Shown: piece by piece, positions 21,032 to 55,265 of the stretch
Position numbering within the stretch: position 1 is the first letter of the stretch
Layout of the letters: each line of letters begins with the position of its first letter
NCBI GenBank assembly: GCA_900168235.1
Contig: FUZG01000006.1
Span: forward strand, 124,001-188,000
DNA: 64,000 bases
Source: Lachnospiraceae bacterium
Lineage (GTDB): Bacteria; Bacillota; Clostridia; Lachnospirales; Lachnospiraceae
Direction: 5' to 3'
Position numbers and translations under genes: made by a program
The notes under the pieces: model-generated
Told to the model about the DNA's origin: nothing
Seen by the model: only the letters and a program-made list of their open reading frames with translations
Databases searched by the model: none

Positions 21032-21061
21032 ACTGTACAGATTATTGTACGTTAATTAAAA

Positions 21062-21218
21062 TGATATCAGGGTCAAAAGGTACAAATCCGATTGTGCTTG
21101 CACAAAAAGGATTTGGAACTTGGGACCCGTAAAACACGAGCATGTAGCGTTATTACGCGGAATGCGAGTGTTTTTGAAGCGCGTAAGCAGTATAGCAGCG
21201 AAGCGATTCGTGATATCA
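21062..21218 (+). repeat. 157-nt structured element, long form (copy S2)
   Basis: Arms TGATATCA at both ends can close a multi-helix structure. Inside, GGGTC (21070) can pair with GACCC (21124); between them AAATCC/GGATTT encloses TTGTG-CTTG-CACAA. A second branch pairs AAACAC-GA-GCAT with ATGC-GA-GTGTTT around GCGTTATTACGC. The minus-strand copy at 55109-55265 has exactly the same length and the same order of helices. It lies 92 bases upstream of the small membrane protein gene at 21310 in the same direction. Probably a cis-acting RNA or a mobile structured repeat. Confidence 0.75.
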
Positions 21219-21249
21219 GTAAGGGTCAAAATTAACTTTTGACCCTTAC
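21219..21249 (+). other. Perfect hairpin built on GGGTCAAAA
   Basis: GTAAGGGTCAAAA and TTTTGACCCTTAC form a perfect 13-bp stem around TTAAC directly after element S2. It repeats the GGGTCAAAA core of the element in inverted form. There is no T tail, so it is not an ordinary terminator; it may be an alternative pairing partner for the core. Confidence 0.65.
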
Positions 21250-21309
21250 ATCATTAAAATATGAGCATAGGAAGAAAAGTGTGACTAAGAGACAGATAGG
21301 AGAAACAAA

Positions 21310-54100: not shown

Positions 54101-55024
54101 TTATTCGTAATCAAATTTTCCATCATTCTTCTCTTCCAGGGCTTTGATCGCGTGGAAACAGAATTCGCAGTATGGAACCGGTATATTGTGCTTTGCACCG
54201 AGACGGATCATAGTACCGGCGAACATATCGATCTCTGTGTGACGTTTATTATCAAGGTCCTGAAGAGTAGAGTATCTCGCATCTTTCTGGCATCCACTGT
54301 AAAAGAGACCGCTTCTGTCGGATATGTCTACCCCTTCTGCGTTAGCAATATCCACAACTTCCTGAACGATTTTTTCTTCGATAAAACCAACGTGTTCACT
54401 ATCGTCATAGGCCCCGACACCTACGCTGAGAATCGCCTGAGGGAGATTTCTGCTCATATTCAGAGCAAACTTGAACCATATCTGACGCATGATATCCGGA
54501 ACAGCAGTGACAGCAACAGGACTGTCATTAAAGAGGTCAAGAATATCCCGCATACGAGGACTTACCTCTGTGGTATTTTTTTCTCCAAAGTAAACTCCCT
54601 TGGTTATAGGGCCATCAAAACGGATAGAATTGTCTTTTCGGTTTGAAGCGATTTTTATTATGGAGTAAATGATATTTTTTTCAGGAATCACGGTTGAAAG
54701 TATTTCCTCTGAATCAACTCCGTTCATTGGACAGAGAACAATAGTATTATCTGTTACGAGTGTCTTTACATTGTCAAGTATGTCGCGTAAAGCACCATAC
54801 TTCACCGCTATGATAAGGAGATCTGCGCCACGGGCTTCTTCCGGAGATTTTACCGCGGGATGGTAGAACTTGTCATTAATGCAGAGCCCCTGAGTTCTCA
54901 GTCTGTCTGCACGTTCACCCGATGCAACGAGTGACAGTTCTATATCAGTTTTTTCACTTAATCCCCATATAAAGTATGAACCGACTGCGCCGGCGCCGAG
55001 GAGTGCTACATTTTTTATTGCCAT
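54101..55024 (-). CDS. panE: Ketopantoate reductase family protein
   Basis: 307 residues. The N-terminal Rossmann motif VALLGAGAVGSYFIWGLSE binds NADP(H); VKYGALRDILDNVKTL and PMNGVDSEEILSTVIPE are typical, and the C-terminal domain has the FKFALNMSRNLPQA and DIMRQIWFKF segments of the family. It would reduce 2-dehydropantoate to pantoate for CoA synthesis, although family members of this kind can act on other 2-keto acids. The leader on its own strand carries the 157-nt element S3, 85 bases before the start. Confidence 0.85.
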   Translation of the reverse strand: MAIKNVALLGAGAVGSYFIWGLSEKTDIELSLVASGERADRLRTQGLCINDKFYHPAVKSPEEARGADLLIIAVKYGALRDILDNVKTLVTDNTIVLCPMNGVDSEEILSTVIPEKNIIYSIIKIASNRKDNSIRFDGPITKGVYFGEKNTTEVSPRMRDILDLFNDSPVAVTAVPDIMRQIWFKFALNMSRNLPQAILSVGVGAYDDSEHVGFIEEKIVQEVVDIANAEGVDISDRSGLFYSGCQKDARYSTLQDLDNKRHTEIDMFAGTMIRLGAKHNIPVPYCEFCFHAIKALEEKNDGKFDYE

Positions 55025-55108: not shown

Positions 55109-55265
55109 AAAAGACACGAATTGCTTCGCTTCTATGAAGCTCCCGCAATTCTAAAACACTCGCATTTCGCGTGATTACGCTACATGCTCGTGTTTTGCGG
55201 GTCCCAAATAAAAAATCCTTTTTGTGCAAGCACAATCGGATTTTTTACTTTTGACCCTGTCTTTT
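55109..55265 (-). repeat. 157-nt structured element, long form (copy S3)
   Basis: Read on the minus strand this copy has the same length and order of helices as S2 at 21062: AAAAGACA closes with TGTCTTTT (a different pair of arms, so compensating changes), GGGTC pairs with GACCC, AAATCC/GGATTT encloses TTGTGCTTGCACAA, and AAACAC-GA-GCAT pairs with ATGC-GA-GTGTTT. A last stem AATTGC/GCAATT with AGCTTC/GAAGC replaces a less clear one in S2. It is in the leader of the ketopantoate reductase gene. Confidence 0.75.

Follow-up and report, generated by a model that had tools for sequence, protein, structure and literature searches.

RF01699 RNA as the probable body of a mobile miniature transposon in Lachnospiraceae, with copies that may be kept as mRNA elements

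The RNA family RF01699 (Clostridiales-1 RNA) is best read as the body of a non-autonomous transposon (MITE) whose transcript folds and some of whose copies have been kept as intercistronic mRNA elements, a joint reading with a probability of roughly 0.7. The element is mobile: it has terminal inverted repeats (TIRs), target duplications and empty sites, and it occurs in nested, tandem and deletion forms. Both the RNA family and the general kind of element, a MITE with a structured transcript, are already known. As far as the literature searched shows, the new points are that RF01699 forms the body of a MITE, that it has a likely mobiliser, and that it has a retained class linked to stop codons.

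The window (the whole stretch analysed, 64,000 nucleotides) contains two 157-nt copies, at 21062-21218 on the forward strand and at 55109-55265 on the reverse strand, and a 42-nt short deletion form (TGATGTCAGGGTCAAAA...GGTTCGTGACATCA) at 624-665 on the forward strand. A preliminary description, made from the letters alone, reported these copies and the pairing of their outer arms, and the sequences are as it described. It did not recognise the family. However, cmscan places RF01699 exactly on both long copies (110.6 bits for 21062-21218 and 128.5 bits for 55109-55265), each end to end over model positions 1-166 and above the gathering threshold of 48 bits. The description had named a match to an Rfam family among the outcomes that would speak against its proposal. 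The 42-nt short form was not reported as RF01699 by cmscan. Single-strand RNA folding returns the helices described earlier, with z-scores of -6.8 for the 21062 copy and -9.7 for the 55109 copy, and none of 200 shuffles folded as well. Both copies fold into three helical arms on a closing helix, and the internal loops are GA-rich. RF01699 was published as a likely structured RNA whose function was unknown, annotated 'cis-reg n, switch n' (Weinberg et al., 2010; PMC2864571). The window element has the same sequence family, ends and secondary structure; the published RNA was not linked to a transposon, whereas here it is a MITE body. Text searches of the literature returned nothing further on RF01699 and no paper tying it to a transposon.

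Downstream of many RF01699 copies lies a further stretch of 33-34 nt, at the end of which the first 17 nt of the element recur in inverted form. The whole unit, GATGTCAGGGTCAAAAG...CTTTTGACCCTTACATC, is mostly 190 bp long and is bounded by 17-bp TIRs (GATGTMAGGGTCAAAAG). In the window, the 157-nt body at 21062 stands as first delimited, but the real unit is larger, spanning 190 bp at 21063-21252 on the forward strand. It comprises the RF01699 body and a 34-nt 3' extension (21219-21252), a hairpin GTAAGGGTCAAAATTAACTTTTGACCCTTAC-ATC that bears the right TIR. The left TIR GATATCAGGGTCAAAAG lies at 21063-21079 and the right TIR CTTTTGACCCTTACATC at 21236-21252, and the unit is flanked by an 8-bp target-site duplication, ATTAAAAT, at 21055-21062 and 21253-21260 (8/8 match). 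The copy at 55109-55265 belongs to the retained class: its arms are AAAAGACA/TGTCTTTT, and it lacks the right TIR and a target duplication.

The same features recur beyond the window. The window's own genome (G000) has 34 occurrences of the TIR motif and one of the reversed pattern; in genome G014 the counts are 148 and none. Perfect 7-8 bp target duplications flank 27 of 47 non-redundant TIR-to-TIR units from four genomes, where shuffled flanks predict 0.87, and the target sites are AT-rich. When RF01699 hits were divided into those with and without a TIR partner, by class thresholds set after looking at the data, duplications of at least 6 bp accompanied 33 of 54 hits with a partner and none of 59 without (sample of 113). 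The TIR sequence varies by species, for example GATTAAAGCGCCAAAAG in G028 and G006, while 7-bp duplications persist. For three insertions, flank searches turned up an empty site in sister species, with a single target copy and flanks 92-100% identical: the 190-bp units L001 (empty in G031 and G014) and L008 (empty in G014) and the 37-bp unit L088 (empty in G014 and G031). In L001 the final base of the two target copies is not the same (TTAAAAT/TTAAAAA), and the junction does not align perfectly at base level in G014. Among twenty-five 190-mers from unrelated sites the median identity is 0.995, which indicates recent movement. The unit thus shows the marks of a MITE, namely TIRs (47 units), target duplications and empty sites, and no transposase of its own but ends in common with an autonomous element, L412.

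Several other forms were observed. Some minimal units are little more than two TIRs (L072 and L088, 37 bp; L148, 36 bp; L108, 46 bp), and some of these have perfect duplications, so the RNA body is unnecessary for movement. At one insertion site, G000 has the 190-bp unit L008, G031 has a 112-bp unit (L162) whose inner hairpin is foreign, and G014 has no insertion. Head-to-tail tandem copies occur at G000:C5:139785-140098, C15:25237-25562 and C9:117400-117662. A second MITE-like structured repeat, with ends GTTACTGTTCA...GAACAGTAAC and no match in Rfam, is nested in four RF01699 units (L135, L159, L074 and L087), in L159 with an 8-bp duplication CAATCCGT, and is also present in the window's own genome (L020/L023, G000:C5:161249-161615). 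Viral contigs gave only two TIR-pattern matches (L125 and L126).

A scan of the named genomes for a TIR pair around an open reading frame found one such element, L412, a 1714-bp sequence that reaches the end of its contig in the Lachnospiraceae MAG ABMPRH_263_2. It carries GATGTAAGGGTCAAAAG at both ends, the same 17-nt ends as the MITE. Its single transposase frame (522 aa from the listed start, 508 aa as used in searches) contains DUF772, DDE_Tnp_1_6 and DDE_Tnp_1. Against the IS1182 model NCBIfam NF033551 it scores 132 bits (E 3e-38), below the cut-off of 270, and it is therefore called IS1182-like rather than a member of IS1182. Three decayed genes for related transposases (in G003, G026 and G028) adjoin GATTGAAACGCCAAAAG or GATTCGAACGCCAAAAG near one end, and these variants resemble the MITE ends of that species group. 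The common ends thus make an IS1182-like transposase very probably the mobiliser of the RF01699 MITE; a complete transposase with matching ends was not found in G000. Other candidates were rejected. The IS256 transposase domain PF00872 is absent from G014, which has the most copies, and its hits in G000 lack the TIR. Convergent TIR pairs around open reading frames in G000:C12 and G014:C4 enclose ordinary genes and not insertion sequences. G014 encodes a transposase that shares 50% identity with the L412 enzyme and has other ends, GAGTCGCCCGACAAATG; this gene (L477, G014:C15:91692-93194) directly adjoins an RF01699 unit with the flank ATATAAT.

The plain alternative to the joint reading is a MITE without RNA function, in which the inverted-repeat architecture would serve solely for DNA-end recognition, the body would be a relic, and the pairing in old copies would be inherited or maintained by hairpin-templated correction. 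Its mobility is clear, a second MITE is nested in it, and units of 36-37 bp with little beyond the TIRs carry duplications without the RNA body. Much of the evidence that makes this alternative unlikely comes from the roughly half of RF01699 copies that lack TIR ends and duplications. Their outer arms depart wholly from the TIR, being of any sequence (AAAAGACA, ATAAACT, GGAAAGTC, CGAGAAAA, TAAAGCC and others), yet they pair. Their 26 distinct non-TGAT arm pairs average 7.46 of 8 paired positions against 4.18 after shuffling, and for a set of 57 distinct arm pairs the value is 7.25 of 8 against 4.75 (maximum of 2000 shuffles, 5.33).

The interior of the element behaves in the same way. RNAalifold under-called helices on the MAFFT alignment because of misalignment, and the structure of one copy (L033) was therefore mapped onto the alignment columns of 52 diverse copies. 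With this mapping, 0.85 of helix cells are paired, compared with 0.65 after shuffling and at most 0.46 when slid, and most helix pairs occur as two or more Watson-Crick types. The covariation in homologues that the preliminary description proposed as a check is thus present. GA-rich internal loops are conserved between the covarying helices, which also speaks against a relic body. The arms contain 13 G.U and no A.C pairs; well-aligned helices contain 32 G.U and 12 A.C under an alignment filter chosen afterwards, and all helices without that filter contain 47 and 38, a difference that is not significant (p 0.39). A strand-symmetric constraint on DNA would equalise the two, so the G.U excess, with its filter set afterwards, points to selection on the sense RNA. 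Hairpin-templated correction would also pair the arms, but it would not favour G.U over A.C. Selection at the RNA level on the folded sense-strand transcript is accordingly well supported by the sequence comparisons.

The position of the copies without a TIR partner also argues against the plain MITE. In the same post hoc classes, and with a simple ORF caller whose length threshold was likewise set after looking, 27 of 39 copies without a partner have a co-directional upstream stop codon within -12 to +5 nt of their first base, as do 5 of 24 copies with one (Fisher p 0.00025). Counted with the same caller, the genes around non-TGAT copies without a partner are mostly in sense (22:8 upstream, 22:5 downstream), so these old copies do not show the orientation-blind scatter that the preliminary description had named as contrary to its proposal. 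Copies with a TIR partner show 24:22 for upstream genes and 30:13 for downstream genes (p 0.014). This downstream bias weakens the contrast between the classes, and unbiased insertion followed by biased retention is not a clean description. In the window, the 624-665 short form fits the pattern of the copies without a partner: the upstream frame 195-626 terminates at the first TGA of this form. In two sister species, the corresponding spacer contains remnants that differ.

The spacer between etfB and etfA shows what can happen at a single site. A full copy follows the EtfB stop codon in G000, G009, G014 and G031, in tandem in G000 and G031. G067 has a strongly diverged full copy in which the shape is kept and most helices are rewritten, G028 and G006 have a deletion form with the arms and one helix, and G062 has a remnant. 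In several more genomes, G004 and G016 among them, the spacer is 15-25 nt long and lacks the element. The G009 and G014 copies differ by compensating changes on both sides of three pairs and by the loss of two pairs. By sequence, one copy appears to have been inherited, compensated and shortened in situ; the G067 copy may be an independent re-insertion at the site.

A second alternative, that RF01699 is an independent regulatory or riboswitch-like family and that the TIR form reflects secondary capture by an IS1182-like element, is very unlikely. Copies without TIRs are sequence-diverse and widespread (54 of 173 genera in the order), their covariation is strong, and downstream genes are mostly in sense. 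However, the function of those genes is inconsistent, and the consistent downstream function that marks a gene-specific cis-regulator is not seen. The neighbours, whose functions were judged informally from the start sequences of genes, are unrelated across copies and include etfA and pheT-like, rpmG-like and pth-like genes. The published annotation of Weinberg et al. (2010; PMC2864571) likewise speaks against a switch, as do the very high copy number (24 in G000 and 38 in G014, the most among the genomes compared) and the deletion forms in the etfB-etfA spacers of G028 and G006, which are kept as readily as full copies.

These counts also bear on the regulatory proposal in the preliminary description, which had listed three copies. 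It placed each 50-95 nt upstream of a co-directional start codon, which is right for those three (about 92 nt for the 21062 copy, 85 nt for the 55109 copy and 53 nt for the 624 form), but a fixed orientation and spacing fails across all copies. It had also pointed to a possible link with pantothenate and phosphopantetheine in two of the three neighbours, an ACP gene and a ketopantoate reductase gene; the 55109-55265 copy lies 85 nt upstream of a ketopantoate-reductase-like frame (54101-55024, reverse strand). The link is a coincidence: the 24 copies in the same genome, and those in 111 of 392 genomes of the order, lie beside unrelated genes, which rules out a pantothenate/phosphopantetheine regulon. 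Matches occur in 34 of 61 genomes of relatives, including most of the same genus. The description's alternatives were a cis-regulatory RNA or a structured mobile repeat; mobility is borne out by the inverted ends, target duplications and empty sites, and the fold is indeed kept by compensating changes, while the unfamiliar family and the pantothenate link fall away.

A single-stranded DNA hairpin element of the REP or IS200-IS605 type, whose fold would act as DNA in transposition, would suit the folded ends and tandem copies, but it is largely refuted by the empty sites, by 7-8 bp duplications and clean TIRs that point to a DDE transposase, and by an end-matched transposase with DDE_Tnp_1 and DUF772 rather than a Y1 transposase, and it is hardly credible.

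The joint reading places RF01699 near several known repeat systems. ERIC/IRU of enterobacteria is a co-transcribed MITE of about 130 bp, and in Yersinia it destabilises the upstream message in an orientation-dependent manner linked to ribosomes near the upstream stop codon and to RNase E (PMC2229807). The RF01699 unit resembles ERIC as a MITE with a proposed stop-codon- and ribosome-linked effect on mRNA, a likeness of description in which RF01699 was tested for position and orientation. By the review PMC2229807 and general background, ERIC differs from RF01699 in its 5'-TA-3' termini, its short TIR and an RNA that forms a single long stem-loop, where RF01699 has three arms on a closing helix. 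The bcr1-bcr18 repeats of Bacillus cereus are intergenic, resemble MITEs and are frequently present in transcripts, within UTRs and operon spacers; bcr3 correlates with longer mRNA half-life (PMC3446304). They differ from RF01699 in sequence and host group, and their MITE-like and conserved-RNA families are separate, whereas RF01699 unites both. For RUP of Streptococcus pneumoniae, the mobiliser was deduced, as here, from TIRs in common with an insertion sequence, IS630-Spn1; RUP is of the IS630 type with TA targets, whereas the RF01699 MITE is IS1182-like with 7-8 bp AT-rich duplications (PMC2229807 for RUP).

In the mechanism proposed here, RF01699 is the transcribed body of MITEs in Lachnospiraceae and related families. 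An IS1182-like transposase acting in trans would recognise the common 17-bp TIRs. Transposition is of the DDE type, cut-and-paste or copying, and duplicates 7-8 bp of AT-rich sequence at the target. Many older copies have lost the TIR partner and kept the fold; they are mostly in sense, and the stop codon of the gene upstream overlaps their 5' closing arm. A ribosome terminating at that stop codon would cover or compete with the closing helix, and upstream translation would then govern how the messages on both sides are processed or how stable they are, as proposed for ERIC in Yersinia. That retained copies act as mRNA elements is a tentative view, held at somewhat below even odds from their position and fold. 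The broader proposal, that a mobile RNA was co-opted time and again at the stop codons of operons to serve, across much of the order, as a switch of mRNA processing or stability coupled to translation termination, is doubtful.

A MITE body with a named type of mobiliser accounts for the copy number and the tandem and short forms of RF01699. At the etfB-etfA spacer, related rumen species present a single site in its full, diverged, short, remnant and empty states, and the retained copies make it testable whether the RNA fold of a mobile element, beyond its DNA ends, is selected after insertion. If the broader proposal is true, the insertion and fixation of one mobile RNA would have rewired many operons.
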